This document shows, piece after piece, positions 8,086 to 32,538 of a stretch of 64,000 nucleotides of DNA. Both the position numbers and the translations under genes were made by a program. The notes below the pieces were generated by a model, which saw only the letters and a list, made by a program, of their open reading frames with translations, did not search any database and was not told the DNA's origin. The number at the start of each line of letters is the position of its first letter. Position 1 is the stretch's first letter. The DNA is from Alphaproteobacteria bacterium. Its GTDB lineage: Bacteria > Pseudomonadota > Alphaproteobacteria > Rhizobiales > Xanthobacteraceae. Location of the stretch: the NCBI GenBank assembly GCA_016869215.1, contig VGEP01000020.1:1-64000 (forward strand), given 5' to 3'.

Positions 8086-10299
8086 TCAGTTCGGCCCGCC
8101 CGCCATGTAGTTCGGCAGCCAGCCTTCGAACCGTTCAGCCAGTGCCTTTACCAGAATCGCCCGCTCACCGGGAAGTGCAATTGCCGCGCCGCCGGTCGTG
8201 CCGATCCGCGCCGCCAGGACACCTGCCGTGCGCGCGATGGCGATGACCGCTTCGGCGTCCGCGGCCGGCACCGTCACGAGGTAACGCGCCTGATCCTCGC
8301 CGAACCAGTACGCATGCGCAGGCGTATCGGAAGGCGGCGCATCGAGCGCCGCCCCGATGCCCGATGCCATCGCCATCTCGGCAAGCGCCACCAGCAGCCC
8401 GCCGTCGGACAGGTCGTGCACCGCAGTGACCCGACCGCCTGCGATCAGCGCGCGAACCGCGTCGCCGTTCTCGCGCTCCTCGACCAGATCGACCGGCGGC
8501 GGCGCGCCCTCTTCGCGCCCGCAGATTTCGCGCAGATAGAGCGACTGGCCGAGCCAGCCCTGCGTCTCGCCGAGCAGCAGGATCGCCTCGCCCTCGGCCT
8601 TGAACGCGAGCGATGCCGACCTGGTGTAGTCGTCCAGCAAACCCACGCCGCCGATCGAAGGCGTCGGCAGGATCGCGCGGCCTTGCGTCTCGTTGTAGAG
8701 CGAGACGTTGCCGGACACGACCGGGAAGTCCAGCGCCTTGCAGGCCTCGGCGATGCCGCGCACGCAGCCGACGAACTGGCCCATGATCTCCGGCTTTTCC
8801 GGATTTCCGAAGTTGAGATTGTCGGTGAGCGCGAGCGGACGCGCGCCGACGGCGACGAGATTGCGCCAGGCCTCCGCCACCGCCTGCTTGCCGCCTTCGA
8901 ACGGATCGGCCTCGCAGTAGCGCGGCGTGACGTCGACGGTGAGCGCGAGCCCCTTCGGGCCCTCCTCGACCCGCACCACCGCGGCGTCGCCGCCCGGCCG
9001 CTGCACGGTGTTGCCGAGAATGACGTGGTCGTACTGCTCCCACACCCATCGCTTGGAGCAGAGATCCGGCGAAGCGATCAGTTTCTCAAGCGCGTCGGCG
9101 GTGGACATCGGCGGCTTGACGCTTTCCGCCTTGATTGCCGGCTGCTTCGGCGTCTCGACGAACGGCCGGTTATAGACCGGCGCCTCGTCGCCGAGTTCCT
9201 TGATCGGCAGGTCGGCCATCACGTCGCCGCCGTGCTTGACGATGAAGCGTTTGCTCGGCGTGGTGCGGCCCACGATAGCGAAGTCGAGGCCCCATTTGCG
9301 GAAGATCGCCTCGGCCTCCTTCTCCTTCTCCGGCTTGAGCACCATCAGCATGCGCTCCTGGCTTTCGGAGAGCATCATCTCGTAGGCGCTCATGCCGGTC
9401 TCGCGGCACGGCACGCTGTCGAGTTCGAGATCGACGCCGAGGTCGCCCTTGGCGCCCATCTCCACCGCCGAGCAGGTGAGCCCCGCCGCGCCCATGTCCT
9501 GGATCGCGATGACGCAATCCTTCGCCATGATTTCGAGGCAGGCTTCGAGCAGCAGCTTTTCCGAAAACGGATCGCCAACCTGCACGGTCGGCCGCTTCTC
9601 CTCCGCGCCCTCGCCGAACTCGGCCGACGCCATGCTGGCGCCGTGAATGCCGTCGCGGCCGGTCTTGGAGCCGAGATAGACGATCGGCATGCCAACGCCC
9701 GAGGCGGCGGCGTAGAATATTCCGTCGGTGCGCGCGAGCCCGACCGCCATGGCGTTGACGAGATTGTTGCCGTCGTAGCGGGTATGGAAGCGCACCTGTC
9801 CGCCGACCGTCGGCACGCCGAAGGAATTGCCGTAGCCGCCGATTCCGGCCACCACGCCCGACACCAGATGCCGGGTCTTGGGGTGCTTCGGATCGCCGAA
9901 CGACAGCGCGTTCAGGCAGGCGATCGGCCGCGCGCCCATGGTGAACACGTCGCGCAGGATGCCACCCACGCCGGTCGCAGCCCCCTGGTAGGGCTCGATG
10001 TAGCTCGGATGGTTGTGGCTCTCCATCTTGAACACGACGGCAAGCCCGTCGCCGATGTCGATGACGCCGGCGTTTTCGCCCGGCCCCTGGATCACCCAGG
10101 GCGCCTTGGTCGGCAATCCGCGCAGGTGGACCTTGGACGACTTATAGGAGCAATGCTCGTTCCACATCGCCGAGAAGATGCCGAGCTCGGTGAAGCTCGG
10201 CTCGCGGCCGATCAGGTCGAGAATGCGCCGGTACTCGTCCGGCTTGAGGCCGTGTTCGGCGACCAGCTCGGGCGTGATGGGGGGCTCGTTTCGGATCAC
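8086..10299 (-). CDS. purL: Phosphoribosylformylglycinamidine synthase subunit II
   Basis: 737 residues, the small form that needs PurQ (glutaminase) and PurS. It makes FGAM from FGAR with ATP and ammonia in purine synthesis. Visible: N-terminal [18 protein letters not shown], the ATP-grip-like metal site in [54 protein letters not shown], and the second AIRS-like half with [22 protein letters not shown] and [10 protein letters not shown]. All three FGAM synthase genes are present in this window (purS 12008, purQ 11290, purL here), so the complex is complete. A membrane-anchored hypothetical lies between purQ and purL. Confidence 0.97.
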
Positions 10300-10388
10300 G
10301 CCCGTTATCTAGCGTGCGCGGCCGGCGATTTCACCCGCCCGCGGCGGGCTTCCACGCCTAATTGTTGGCGCCGCCGGACTTCGCGCCT

Positions 10389-11225
10389 TCAGCGGTCCCG
10401 GCCCATGAAGAACATGCTGACGAACAGCTTGCAGCGCGGGCTTTCGTCGAGTTGCGCAACCGCCCGGTACAGGCGGTCCACCATCACGCAGGGCTTGCCG
10501 GGGCCGTCGCCCTCCTTGTTGAGGAACTCCCCGGAGCGAATCTCGTTCAGCGTCAGGCCTGCCTTCGCAAGAACGGCTTCGAAGGCCTTCAGTTCCTCGG
10601 CCGACAATGCGTCGACCGTCACCATGCGCGAGCGGCCCTCCACGATGGCCTCAAAGCGATGAAGCGTTGCAAGCCGCATCAGCCGGCGGATGTCGTCGGG
10701 CGGGACCACGGGGCCCTGGTTCTCCGAACGGCCCAGCACCGCAAGACAATAGTCCGACCCCGCCGCTCCGAGTGCCGCGAACAGCCGGATTTCGTTGGCC
10801 GCCAGCCGGTCGATGGCCGCGGTGCTGGCGCCGACCGCAAATTTCAGGTTGGCGCGCAGGATGGACTGGAATTTGGTGAAGGTTTCCCGGCCGACGTCGG
10901 CGTCGGAGGCGCCCTCGTTTCGAGTTTGCACGGCGGCCGCTATCAAATCCCGGTACTCGTCGGGGAACGCGCGCTTGAGCAGCGCCTGCAACTCGGCGTG
11001 GTCCGACTTGGCGATTTCGGCTTCGACGCTCTCCGGCGTTGCGGGCTGCGGCTTGGCCGCGGCGGCCGGTGCGCTGGGTGCGGGGGCGGAAGCCGGTGCG
11101 GGACGCGAGACAGGCGCGAGGCTCTCCGGCGCGCGCGGCGTCAGCGCGAAGTAAAAGCCGCCGCCCGCGAGCAACACGAGCCCTGCGGCAATCGACATTA
11201 TGACGCGGTGGTCCAGCGACTCCAT
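10389..11225 (-). CDS. Membrane-anchored hypothetical protein in the pur cluster
   Basis: 278 residues from the ATG at 11225; an upstream start at 11270 would add 15 Arg/Gly-rich residues and is less likely. One N-terminal membrane helix (HRVIMSIAAGLVLLAGGGFYFAL, about residues 6-28) is followed by an Ala/Pro-rich linker of about 40 residues and a soluble helical domain to the end. No cysteine pair or catalytic motif is recognisable; single cysteines lie in SDYCLAVLG, GKPCVMV and RCKLFVSM. It sits 64 bases after purQ and 89 before purL, so it is probably co-transcribed, but nothing links it to purine chemistry. Function unknown. Confidence 0.75.
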   Translation of the reverse strand: MESLDHRVIMSIAAGLVLLAGGGFYFALTPRAPESLAPVSRPAPASAPAPSAPAAAAKPQPATPESVEAEIAKSDHAELQALLKRAFPDEYRDLIAAAVQTRNEGASDADVGRETFTKFQSILRANLKFAVGASTAAIDRLAANEIRLFAALGAAGSDYCLAVLGRSENQGPVVPPDDIRRLMRLATLHRFEAIVEGRSRMVTVDALSAEELKAFEAVLAKAGLTLNEIRSGEFLNKEGDGPGKPCVMVDRLYRAVAQLDESPRCKLFVSMFFMGRDR

Positions 11226-12007: not shown

Positions 12008-12250
12008 TCAGCCCACGACCTCAATTCGGTAATTCTCGATCACTGTGTTCGCCAGGAGCTTCTCGGCCGCGTCCTTCAGCGCGGCCTCGGCCCTGGCGCG
12101 GTCGGCGCCCTCGACCTCGATGTCGAACACCTTGCCCTGGCGGACGCTGGCCACACCGGACACGCCGAGCGATTTCAGCGCGCCCTCGATGGCCTTGCCC
12201 TGCGGGTCGAGGACACCGGATTTCAGCGTGACGGTGACGCGTGCTTTCAT
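12008..12250 (-). CDS. purS: PurS, bridging subunit of FGAM synthase
   Basis: 80 residues from [29 protein letters not shown], the family start; the open frame upstream is not conserved. It contains [13 protein letters not shown] and ends [16 protein letters not shown], both typical. PurS dimers hold PurQ and PurL together and help channel ammonia. It lies directly before purQ (16 bases). In many Hyphomicrobiales purS follows purC closely; here three unrelated genes separate them. Confidence 0.95.
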
Positions 12251-12386: not shown

Positions 12387-13079
12387 TCAGGTCCAGAAGC
12401 GGTAGTTCAGACCGAATTTAATGAGATGCAGGCGCTGCGAGAAGGTCGCCACGAAACCGTCCGGCAGCGGCAGGAACGTCACGAGGCCGCTGCGTCCGAA
12501 ATCGACGTAGTTGTATTCGAGCTTGAGCGACCAGCCGGGGCGGAATGCATATTCAACGCCACCGCCGGCCATCCATCCGGTCCGGGTGGATTGCAGCTTG
12601 GTCGGACCGAAACCGGCCTGCTGGACGTATTGGAAGCGCAGTTCCGAATGCGCCCGGGCCGCGCCGCCCTTGCCGTAAATCAGCCACCGGTCCCAGGCGT
12701 ATCCGACGCGGCCGGCCGCGGTTGCGATCCATTTCACATCGGCCTCGAACACATCGCCGGCGAAGCCCGGCTTGTCGTCGACCACGGACTTCGTGATGGC
12801 GGCGCCGGACAGGTCGCCCTCGACGCCGAAGACCCATCGCCCATTCTGGTAGTTGAATCCGGCCTGACCGCCGCCGATCAGGCCGTGCGGTCGGTGCGAC
12901 AAGTACCAGTCGGGAAATGCCGGGTCGTAATATGTGATCGGACTGCTGCCCCAACCCAGATGCACGACGCCGTAGAAACCGGTCCAGCTATATGCCGGCT
13001 GCGCCGATGCCGGTGCAATCGCCGCCAGAAATAGCGCCGCCAATCCAACGACCGACTTCACAACTCGTCCTGGGTGCAT
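12387..13079 (-). CDS. Outer-membrane beta-barrel protein (Omp25/porin-like family)
   Basis: 230 residues. A signal peptide of about 27 residues (VVGLAALFLAAIAPASAQ) precedes a mature protein that starts YSWTGFYGVVHLGWG, very like rhizobial Omp25/Omp31 and heat-resistant-agglutinin-type barrels. Alternating strands follow (AGFNYQNGRWVFGVEGDL, ATAAGRVGYAWDRWLIYGKGG, WMAGGGVEYAFRPGWSLKLEYNYVDFG) and it ends LHLIKFGLNYRFWT with an aromatic C-terminus, as barrels need for assembly. It lies between the racemase gene and purS and is likely an accessory insertion into the purine cluster. Substrate or ligand cannot be read from sequence. Confidence 0.85.
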   Translation of the reverse strand: MHPGRVVKSVVGLAALFLAAIAPASAQPAYSWTGFYGVVHLGWGSSPITYYDPAFPDWYLSHRPHGLIGGGQAGFNYQNGRWVFGVEGDLSGAAITKSVVDDKPGFAGDVFEADVKWIATAAGRVGYAWDRWLIYGKGGAARAHSELRFQYVQQAGFGPTKLQSTRTGWMAGGGVEYAFRPGWSLKLEYNYVDFGRSGLVTFLPLPDGFVATFSQRLHLIKFGLNYRFWT

Positions 13080-13143
13080 CCGACGCTCACAGCACTCAAG
13101 AAGACTATCGCAGCCCGAAATGCCGGGCAGCGCCGAATGCCGC

Positions 13144-30887: not shown

Positions 30888-31259
30888 ATGAGCATCGAAG
30901 CCGCCATGAAATTCGCGGAGCGGATCGCCACGCGGGAGGCGGTGCACGCGCAGGTCCGCAACGCGACCGCCGGCAAGGACGAGCCGTCGGCGCTCGCCGC
31001 GGTCGTCGCGCTCGGCAAGAACGAGGGTTTCGACTTCACCGCGGACGAAGCCGCGCAGGTCCGCAGGACGCTGATGCTGATCGTCAAGCAGCGCACCGGC
31101 GAGGAACTGACCGACGACGAGCTGGAGCGGGTCGCCGGCGGCATGATGACCATCACCGACCCGTTCGCGCAGTTCACGAGCAACGTGCCCAAGCCCGGAC
31201 CGGCCGCCGCGCCCGGCTGGACCAAGCACGTCGACAAGCCGATGTTCACGGGCTGGTAG
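30888..31259 (+). CDS. Nif11-type leader peptide precursor 1 (RiPP-like)
   Basis: 123 residues from MSIEAAMKFAERIA, aligned with the starts of the two paralogues; a Met seven residues earlier is less likely. Residues 1-85 match the Nif11/nitrile-hydratase leader family: LAAVVALGKNEGFDFTADEAAQV, then TDDELERVAGG with a double-Gly cleavage site at 84-85. The 38-residue core is MMTITDPFAQFTSNVPKPGP then AAAPGWTKHVDKPMFTGW, rich in Pro, without Cys, ending FTGW. Such precursors are normally trimmed by a C39-peptidase exporter after enzyme modification, but none is adjacent. Product unknown. It is the most divergent of the three, and 73 bases precede precursor 2. Confidence 0.85.
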   Translation: MSIEAAMKFAERIATREAVHAQVRNATAGKDEPSALAAVVALGKNEGFDFTADEAAQVRRTLMLIVKQRTGEELTDDELERVAGGMMTITDPFAQFTSNVPKPGPAAAPGWTKHVDKPMFTGW

Positions 31260-31332
31260 CGGCCGGAACGCAGTTTCAGTTTGCGGACGCCGCTGGGGTG
31301 GGCCGCGTGGTTCGAGCGAAAGGAAAAGCGAC

Positions 31333-31797
31333 ATGAGTTTGGAATCGGCATTGCAATTCACCGTCAAGATGGTCAAGGCGCCCGAATTGCACGACGAGGT
31401 CATCAAGACCGTCGCCGGCAAGGATCCGAAGGCGGCGAGCACGGCGATCGCGGCGCTGGGCAAGAAGCACGGCTTCGAGTTCACCGCCGAGGAGGCGTTC
31501 GAGGCCCGTTCCGGCGCGCTCCACCTGCTTCGGAAAGAGGGAATGGTGACCGACGAGCTGCCCGCCGCGGACCTGGACAAGGTGTCGGGCGGCATGAAGA
31601 CGCCGGACTTCTTCACGCGCGAGGGCTGGGCGCCGCTGTGGTCCACTTCGTCCTCGGACTGGAAGTGGGCCGGTGACACGCTGGTCAGCAAGGATGCCTG
31701 GAAGGGCACCGGCCAGAGCATGGTCAGCGCCAGCACCTGGAGCAATGTCGGCAACCAAATCTCCAACAAGGCCACCAGCTTCTTCAGCGGCTGGTGA
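31333..31797 (+). CDS. Nif11-type leader peptide precursor 2 (RiPP-like)
   Basis: 154 residues; ATG at 31333 with an AAAGGAA ribosome-binding site. Leader residues 1-87 contain AALGKKHGFEFTAEEAFEARSGALHLL and end LPAADLDKVSGG. The 67-residue core starts MKTPDFFTREGWAPLW, carries seven Trp and many Ser/Thr/Asn, has no Cys, and ends KATSFFSGW. Leader identity with precursor 3 is very high while the cores differ in the middle, the usual pattern for families with a shared maturation machine. A hairpin plus T-rich tract follows. No lanthipeptide, cyclodehydratase or radical-SAM gene is nearby, so any modification is unknown. Confidence 0.88.
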   Translation: MSLESALQFTVKMVKAPELHDEVIKTVAGKDPKAASTAIAALGKKHGFEFTAEEAFEARSGALHLLRKEGMVTDELPAADLDKVSGGMKTPDFFTREGWAPLWSTSSSDWKWAGDTLVSKDAWKGTGQSMVSASTWSNVGNQISNKATSFFSGW

Positions 31798-31832
31798 GCC
31801 CGCCCGGAAACGCCGAGCCGGCACAATCCATG

Positions 31833-31867
31833 GAGGCCGCCGGAAACGGCGGCCTCACACTTTCTTT
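31833..31867 (+). terminator. Terminator-like hairpin after precursor 2
   Basis: Arms GAGGCCGCCG and CGGCGGCCTC (10 pairs) with a GAAA tetraloop, then ACACTTTCTTT. The stem core and loop are the same as after precursor 3. Confidence 0.75.
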
Positions 31868-32016
31868 ATCAGCGCCGGGCTTTTCCGCACCCCGTGTGGC
31901 AATGCCCACAGCGGCCATCCCCGGGATAAATGCAAATGGCGAAGGCCGGGCAGCGAAGACATGCAGCGGCCGGAGAGCCGCAAGCGCAGTTCCATTGAAC
32001 CGTAAAAGGAAATGAC

Positions 32017-32475
32017 ATGAGTCTCGAATCCGCCGTTCAGTTCACCACCAAGATGGTCAAGTCGCCCGCTCTGCACGAGGAGGTAGCCAAGACCGTCGCA
32101 GGCAAGGACCCGAAGGCCGCGAGCGCCGCCGTCGCGGCGCTGGGCAAGAAGCATGGCTTCGAGTTCACCGCCGAGGAGGCCTACCAAGTGCGCGAAGGCG
32201 CGCTGACCATGATGCGGCGCGACGGCATCCTGCCGGACGAACTGGGCGAGAAGGATCTCGACCAGGTGGCGGGAGGGATGAAGAAGCCGGACATCTTTAC
32301 CGCGGCCGGCTGGAAGCCGCTCACCGACAAGAGTGGCTGGACCGAGATCGGAAACGTGTTCACCAGCACCAGCGGCATCAGCGCCTTCGGCAATGCCATG
32401 GTCGATCGCGGCATCTGGTCGTCCATCCCCGGTACGGTGGCGAGCCGCGTGTCAAGCTTCTTCAGCGGCTGGTAA
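32017..32475 (+). CDS. Nif11-type leader peptide precursor 3 (RiPP-like)
   Basis: 152 residues; ATG at 32017 with an AAAAGGAAATG ribosome-binding site like precursor 2. The leader (1-87) shares the GFEFTAEEA segment and ends GEKDLDQVAGG. The 65-residue core starts MKKPDIFTAAGWKPL, has many Gly, Ser and Thr and no Cys, and ends SSFFSGW. The start of the core (MKxPDxFTxxGWxPL) and the FFSGW end are shared with precursor 2. It follows a terminator-like hairpin, so it probably has its own promoter in 31868-32016, though I cannot see a clear one. Confidence 0.88.
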   Translation: MSLESAVQFTTKMVKSPALHEEVAKTVAGKDPKAASAAVAALGKKHGFEFTAEEAYQVREGALTMMRRDGILPDELGEKDLDQVAGGMKKPDIFTAAGWKPLTDKSGWTEIGNVFTSTSGISAFGNAMVDRGIWSSIPGTVASRVSSFFSGW

Positions 32476-32503
32476 GCGCACGCCACGTTGACGCGCCACG
32501 CGC

Positions 32504-32538
32504 GGGGCCGCCGGAAACGGCGGCCCCGTACTTTTCTT
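32504..32538 (+). terminator. Rho-independent terminator after precursor 3
   Basis: Arms GGGGCCGCCG and CGGCGGCCCC (10 pairs) with a GAAA tetraloop, then GTACTTTTCTT. Confidence 0.8.

Follow-up and report, generated by a model that had tools for sequence, protein, structure and literature searches.

Three Nif11-type precursors at the locus

Within the window (the whole stretch of 64,000 nucleotides analysed here) three tandem genes lie on the forward strand: precursor A at 30888..31259 (123 residues, counted from the ATG at 30888), precursor B at 31333..31797 (154 residues) and precursor C at 32017..32475 (152 residues). An earlier reading, made from the sequence alone, had described proteins of these lengths with Gly-Gly leaders at 30888-32475, and the open reading frames confirm it. 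It had also placed them among Nif11-type precursors and proposed a profile comparison, which bears out the assignment: all three pass the PF07862 (Nif11) gathering score of 23.8 bits (36.1, 25.8 and 36.6 bits for A, B and C), and two pass the TIGR03798 NCBIfam cut-off of 32.3 bits (40.4 and 32.7 bits for A and C, against 28.3 bits for B).

The leaders comprise 85 residues in A (30888..31142, ending VAGG), 87 in B (31333..31593, ending VSGG) and 87 in C (32017..32277, ending VAGG). Gly-Gly closes the leader in all three, as it does in each of the 18 precursors that we aligned, and is followed by cores of 38, 67 and 65 residues, respectively. The leaders of B and C had been called almost the same, which overstates the case, since 62 of 87 positions (71%) are identical. 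The cores had been called different, and they do diverge more than the leaders (20 of 59 positions identical between B and C once the last six residues are set aside; both contain Gly and Ser), but they are not wholly different. They end in PMFTGW (A) or SFFSGW (B and C), a common C-terminal Trp tail that the sequence-only reading had overlooked. The tail is mapped as DKPMFTGW at 31233..31256 in A, ATSFFSGW at 31771..31794 in B and VSSFFSGW at 32449..32472 in C.

Terminator-like hairpins follow B (31833..31856, forward strand) and C (32502..32529, forward strand) and have a 20-base sequence in common; this mutual likeness is the sole argument for them, because the terminator scan gives three sites where 2.6 are expected in shuffles. 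The gaps at the three genes measure 73, 219 and 156 nt. Among open reading frames of at least 60 residues reaching into these gaps we found no convincing immunity gene; one of 73 residues, which crosses the hairpin in the 219-nt gap, is unlike a membrane protein. RecA and AlaRS upstream both exceed their NCBIfam cut-offs, so these two of the previously named neighbours stand, while the amidohydrolase and Mur ligase named downstream are resemblances (amidohydrolase-like and MurC/Mpl-like proteins, both under the cut-offs of their best models). As had been noted before, no maturation gene is seen beside the three genes.

In the predicted structure of precursor C the leader reaches a pLDDT of about 70-90, and core and tail remain below 50. 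A profile search of the PDB returned a single strong match, the Nif11-domain protein 9zn4, which extends across the leader (E 6.7e-12).

Paralogs in the same genome

Protein and PF07862 searches of the 5.15-Mb assembly revealed eight paralogs at four loci: the three of the window (contig C20), two on contig C15, two on C5 and one on C11. Judged from sequence, the C15 and C11 paralogs also sit among unrelated genes. The C15 pair scores under the Pfam cut-off (20.6 and 18.2 bits) yet aligns with the other paralogs over the full length. The count leaves out a ninth tblastn place on contig C55 (E 0.5) and five PF07862 places with E above 1, one of them inside an NHLP-leader-like gene.

All eight are built alike, with leaders of 85-88 residues and a net charge of -3 to -5, cores of 38-67 residues and a net charge of +1 to +3, and no Cys at all. 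No 9-mer recurs in three or more of the eight upstream regions, and a pattern scan of genome contigs with the eight paralogs gave 15 pattern matches, none of which was confirmed. A plasmid, phage or viral home also found no support in our searches: three precursors had no match in plasmids, one precursor had none in phages and an alignment of precursors had none in viral contigs. In the two C15 cores (9480-10514) Trp recurs at a 16-residue spacing, resembling a degenerate 16-residue tandem repeat.

A constant C-terminal tail ending in Trp

The tail is common to all eight paralogs, which close in two hydrophobic residues, two variable positions and Trp (SFFSGW, MFTGW, VFSGW, FFYGW, FFKKW or FFSSW), the Phe at -3 and the last Trp being invariant. 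Scored as [FLIMV][FLIMVT]xxW at the C-terminus, this pattern is found in 24 of 27 Nif11-type proteins from four genomes, which were chosen for carrying the tail, so that the count is not a population frequency; it occurs in 1 of 429 other open reading frames, and a chance origin is thereby rejected. Of the three proteins that lack it, two are Gly-Gly proteins, one from either of two Nisaea species, and the third comes from a genome outside the class (G1006). In the 24 tails Trp is always last, positions -3 and -4 are always large and hydrophobic, and 18 of them have a hydrophobic residue at -7. Taken over the last 11 residues, the helical hydrophobic moment amounts to 0.50; shuffling each tail gives 0.28 (sd 0.03), and none of 2000 shuffles is as high. 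We also considered an outer-membrane beta-signal and discarded it, the moment being 0.50 at 100 degrees and 0.16 at 170.

We searched for relatives with a profile of the eight paralogs in 61 genomes (2 with a match, the window's own included), 391 genomes of the family (6 with a match) and 385 of the class (7 with a match), and with 18 precursors as query in 398 genomes of the phylum (4 with a match, of which G945 and G1006 were new); these samples overlap. Nisaea belongs to the class of the window genome, Alphaproteobacteria, and of 36 genomes searched from its order 34 gave no match. The tail is present on five of the six Gly-Gly Nif11 precursors examined in each Nisaea species, the five in N. 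nitritireducens ending NFFKKW, NFVKQW, NLLKQW, DLFKKW and RFLRKW. G1006 has five precursors, four of them with the tail (EFFSGW, NFFSGW, DFFSGW and DFFSGW), so the very letters FFSGW of the window recur outside the class.

Other Nif11-type proteins have no such tail. This holds for eleven proteins of seven genomes (G113, G357, G549, G690, G787, G792 and G945, the last with three precursors) and for those examined in Ensifer, Shinella, Azospirillum thermophilum and Mesorhizobium plasmids. The plasmid records with ABC1 (see below) number 20, and 12 were taken in, two of these lying outside the precursor scan; loci L030, L034 and L035 show no legible Nif11 protein, and minus-strand matches at L039 (G620) and L045 (G690) fall outside the reading.

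Nif11 leader, Gly-Gly site and exporter have been described before. In the one open-access library searched we found no description of a constant Trp tail on variable cores or of a core-less tail protein; the tail letters turned up as FFKKW in a paper on pleurocidin peptides and as FFSGW in unrelated text, and the available excerpt of a paper on a nitrile-hydratase-like small protein of Pseudomonas (PMC7726476) has no bearing on the tail.

Divergence of leader, core and tail

To compare the three parts we used five pairs of Nisaea orthologs and pairs of paralogs. In Nisaea pairs 1 to 5 the leaders are identical at 74/84, 75/84, 77/84, 53/79 and 84/85 positions, the cores at 31/48, 27/49, 12/32, 7/24 and 31/31, and the last six residues at 6/6, 5/6, 6/6, 3/6 and 6/6. 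By this measure most cores diverge, whereas leaders are conserved and so, as a rule, are tails.

In a simple Nei-Gojobori count of nine core comparisons, dN equals or exceeds dS in four: B and C of the window (dN 0.83, dS 0.77), the third Nisaea pair (0.62, 0.52), the C5 pair (0.21, 0.12) and a G1006 pair (0.47, 0.28). The leaders of the same four pairs have dN of 0.02-0.21 and dS of 0.13-0.65. In three further comparisons, the first (0.28, 1.05) and second (0.30, 0.92) Nisaea pairs and the C15 pair (0.83, 1.70), core dN falls short of dS; the cores of the fifth Nisaea pair are unchanged, and dS is saturated in the fourth. For the last eight residues dN lies between 0 and 0.16 in eight of ten comparisons, the C5 pair (0.44) and the fourth Nisaea pair (0.50) being the two others. 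As to the selection for core diversity proposed earlier, the counts show cores in relaxed or diversifying evolution, and they stop short of proof of positive selection because the cores are short and hard to align.

Export and modification genes

The three NHLM exporter models TIGR03794, TIGR03796 and TIGR03797 all have matches over cut-off in the genome, on two contigs and none in the window, so that exporter and window precursors are on separate contigs. A search for C39-peptidase ABC exporters, also proposed by the sequence-only reading, gave one Peptidase_C39 match, at the N-terminus of an NHLM ABC1 (1026 bits, cut-off 853). This gene adjoins an NHLM HlyD (301 bits, cut-off 156) and NodT-like frames, and it stops at base 410 of contig C77, close to the contig end. 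An NHLM ABC2 (775 bits, cut-off 709) lies at the very end of contig C5, followed by an NHLP-leader-like gene and, downstream, by the C5 precursor pair, which places two of the eight paralogs next to an exporter gene. We infer that the ends of C77 and C5 belong together, and the order would then resemble that in Nisaea.

Two details of these contigs may be added. The NodT-type outer-membrane factor upstream of HlyD (C77, 3925-5476) is split into two overlapping frames of 203 and 341 residues, each matching one half of TIGR01845, which indicates a frameshift or an assembly error. The NHLP-leader-like gene (C5, 11922-12455, minus strand) reaches 33 bits against a TIGR03793 cut-off of 51; another frame is also open at 12053-12175, and its core is thus ambiguous.

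Because the genome has a single C39 match, and NHLM HlyD, ABC1 and ABC2 on other contigs, a processing machine acting in trans, as had been suggested, is likely, and by these profile matches the window genes are probably served by the NHLM exporter. The C39 domain of LahT cuts both Nif11 and nitrile-hydratase-type leaders and reads the last 13 leader residues (PMC6363468, in excerpt); by analogy, it is plausible that one exporter could handle all eight precursors.

The same reading had also thought of a modification machine in trans and proposed a search for maturases, and here the result goes the other way. LanC gave one match in the genome, under cut-off (E 0.3), YcaO gave none at E <= 1, and the only SPASM protein over cut-off is PqqE, beside PqqC, with two weaker matches. 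The search consisted of these three families; the LanM dehydratase domain, dehydratases without LanC, non-SPASM radical SAM enzymes and other tailoring enzymes lie outside it. A lanthipeptide of the prochlorosin type is rejected by the lack of Cys in all eight paralogs and of LanC over cut-off, and a TOMM by the lack of YcaO in the genome; a SPASM maturase for the Nif11 peptides is weakened, the one protein over cut-off being PqqE. Since no LanC, YcaO or SPASM protein other than PqqE passes its cut-off and Cys is missing, the eight paralogs are probably secreted unmodified as far as these modifiers are concerned, and the alternative offered earlier, that the peptides act unmodified, fits best.

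A proposed three-part secreted peptide

The reading that we favour, tentatively and at somewhat less than an even chance, is that these genes encode unmodified secreted peptides of three parts, a Nif11 leader, a variable payload and a constant tail. The leader of 85-88 residues would be the handling segment, after whose Gly-Gly the C39 domain of ABC1 would cut. ABC1 and ABC2, with HlyD and an outer-membrane factor, would export the product. The Cys-free, positively charged core would be a fast-changing payload, and the predicted C-terminal amphipathic helix may remain attached after release and serve all the peptides as an anchor or address; class II microcins provide the analogy. Several observations count against this: the core-less tail protein of Nisaea, described below, the tail changes in the C5 and fourth Nisaea pairs, two Cys-bearing Nisaea precursors, the low pLDDT of core and tail in precursor C, and an exporter unlinked to the window precursors.

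A broader version, possible but less probable, is a modular and as yet nameless family of secreted Gly-Gly peptides that spans two or more classes of Pseudomonadota. Its payload would vary between two fixed ends, a Nif11 leader that the exporter recognises and a Trp-ended amphipathic helix that a dedicated partner (a target receptor or the exporter) recognises, and the core-less Nisaea protein would be a built-in regulator or decoy.

Nisaea clusters and a core-less tail protein

In Nisaea nitritireducens DSM 19540, one of the matches in the class sample, the genes for HlyD, ABC1 and ABC2, all over cut-off, are followed by a protein of 93 residues and four tandem precursors, a fifth precursor lying elsewhere; the search of the order showed an identical arrangement in Nisaea denitrificans DSM 18348. 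One Cys is present in two of the ten tailed Gly-Gly precursors of the two species. The 93-residue protein, located between ABC2 and the precursors in both, is leader-like, without Gly-Gly or core, and ends in GFLKQW. No NCBIfam Nif11 model recognises it, its sole weak match being HPr-like and under cut-off. In its predicted structure the tail helix has a pLDDT of about 53, which is uninformative on docking of the tail on the leader.

This protein could be an adaptor, decoy or regulator. It cannot release a peptide at Gly-Gly, so its tail would have a use on a protein that stays uncut or within the producing cell, and a tail acting on released peptides alone would hardly explain it. The tail might therefore be a second export or handling signal, read together with the leader by the NHLM machine or a partner inside the producer, and dispensable for activity. 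The conservation of the 93-residue protein between the species speaks for this (leader part dN 0.12 against dS 0.54; no amino-acid change in the last eight residues). An NHLM ABC2 over cut-off is nonetheless present in six genomes whose examined precursors have no tail (those listed above other than G945), and each Nisaea and G1006 keep a tail-less Gly-Gly Nif11 protein beside tailed relatives. We consider this alternative unlikely, though the strongest competitor of the three-part peptide.

The tail-less Gly-Gly Nif11-like protein in Nisaea is encoded upstream of each exporter (L053 727-1062; L068 4042-4377). It is identical at 101 of 112 positions between the species, whereas the cores of the tailed precursors diverge.

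Maturases and tails in related clusters

Somewhat less probable again is that the products are modified after all, with an unrecognised trans enzyme acting on the Ser-, Thr- and Trp-containing cores and the tail serving as a follower (recognition) segment. Nif11 leaders often go with modification (PMC2887384, in excerpt), and an array on plasmid pAB510a of Azospirillum sp. B510 (L122 1642-8629) lends some support. Seven of its eight NHLP-leader precursors end in Trp, five of the seven with Lys before it, and the array adjoins a JmjC_2 protein and NHLM exporter genes. Haft 2010 (PMC2887384) places a LanM-like gene near this array and, in the excerpt available, aligns the precursors without remark on the tail.

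The results for LanC, YcaO and SPASM and the absence of Cys from the eight paralogs stand against modification. No RiPP maturase was recognised near the exporters of the two Nisaea species and G1006 among the part of the neighbouring open reading frames that was scanned; AraC-type regulators and other genes are found there. In G1006 the nearest candidate is a GNAT protein; HlyD, ABC1 and ABC2 of that genome each exceed their cut-off and adjoin two tailed precursors. Moreover, three clusters with radical SAM enzymes have tail-less precursors: Mesorhizobium (radical SAM epimerase and C-methyltransferase), Shinella (radical SAM) and G945 (B12-binding radical SAM). A PoyD-type epimerase occurs in the G620 cluster. 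This association of tail and maturase is one-sided, because other tail-less clusters, Ensifer for one, are also without an annotated maturase.

Very improbable, finally, is that these are intracellular, unexported Nif11-domain proteins with Gly-Gly as a relic: the window genes are away from the exporter and Nif11 proteins without Gly-Gly exist, but Gly-Gly is invariant in the aligned precursors, and NHLM exporters have related precursors as neighbours in Nisaea, in G1006 and on the genome's own contig C5.

Comparison with known systems

With the Nif11-derived precursors and the NHLM exporter of Haft 2010 (PMC2887384, in excerpt) our genes agree in leader family, Gly-Gly, paralogous expansion and exporter models. 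They differ in that the eight have no Cys, that their cores, variable otherwise, close in a constant tail, and that neither a LanM nor a TOMM enzyme was found. The family is described by a hypervariable core rich in Cys, Ser, Thr and Gly; here the cores do vary, yet they have no Cys and a constant tail. Prochlorosins have Cys-rich lanthipeptide cores and a LanM. They combine many Nif11 precursors with one such enzyme (see also the abstract of PMC10783134), and so resemble our genes in having many precursors and one machine in trans, and differ from them in the points already given, Cys and LanC.

For cores that vary while their end stays constant, the nearest parallel is offered by class II microcins. 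Their leaders are short. According to the excerpt of PMC10233263, they have a Gly-Gly leader and a C39 transporter with an HlyD-type partner (a combination present in this genome), they are unmodified or nearly so, one exporter may serve several of them, and the C-terminus, constant in class IIb, sets uptake while the remainder sets activity. The same source gives the differences: in class IIb the C-terminal part bears a siderophore and is rich in Gly and Ser, and an immunity gene is adjacent. In Synechococcus elongatus the C39 transporter PteB also exports several small Gly-Gly proteins, EbfG1-4; unlike the window peptides these have a known biofilm role, and the excerpt of PMC4997328 does not mention a Nif11 leader. 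The AzoA-type precursors of Azospirillum sp. B510 (PMC6363468 and PMC2887384, both in excerpt) are alike in being tandem Gly-Gly precursors beside NHLM exporter genes, and in our count mostly end in Trp. They are set apart by a nitrile-hydratase-type leader (82 bits), hydrophobic cores, ends that do not fit the tail pattern and a nearby JmjC_2 gene.

Sequence alone does not decide between a microcin-like and a biofilm-type role. Competition of the microcin kind would be the most probable single role, short of an even chance; a function at the surface, in the matrix or in signalling is less probable, and other roles are about level with the latter. The bacteriocin role is marked down because no convincing immunity gene lies beside the window genes.

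Classification of Nif11 and Gly-Gly peptides usually follows the enzymes that modify them. In this subgroup no such enzyme was found, the helix is constant and the middle changes fast, which suggests a different logic, that of a constant address and a variable payload. The short tail motif could find members that cluster-based mining misses, because such genes stand by themselves amid housekeeping genes. What the tail does is testable in Nisaea, since the DSM strains have precursors and exporter in one cluster.

Two further observations concern the surroundings of NHLM exporters. In G357 the same Gly-Gly peptide genes lie on either side of the exporter in inverted orientation (L132, 4778-5372 on the minus strand and 12450-13134 on the plus strand). 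AraC-type or other helix-turn-helix regulators are encoded near NHLM exporters in several genomes (L053 1225-2382, L114 16897-17955, L123 15951-16985, L125 15094-16185 and L126 5909-6952), perhaps reflecting a shared control.
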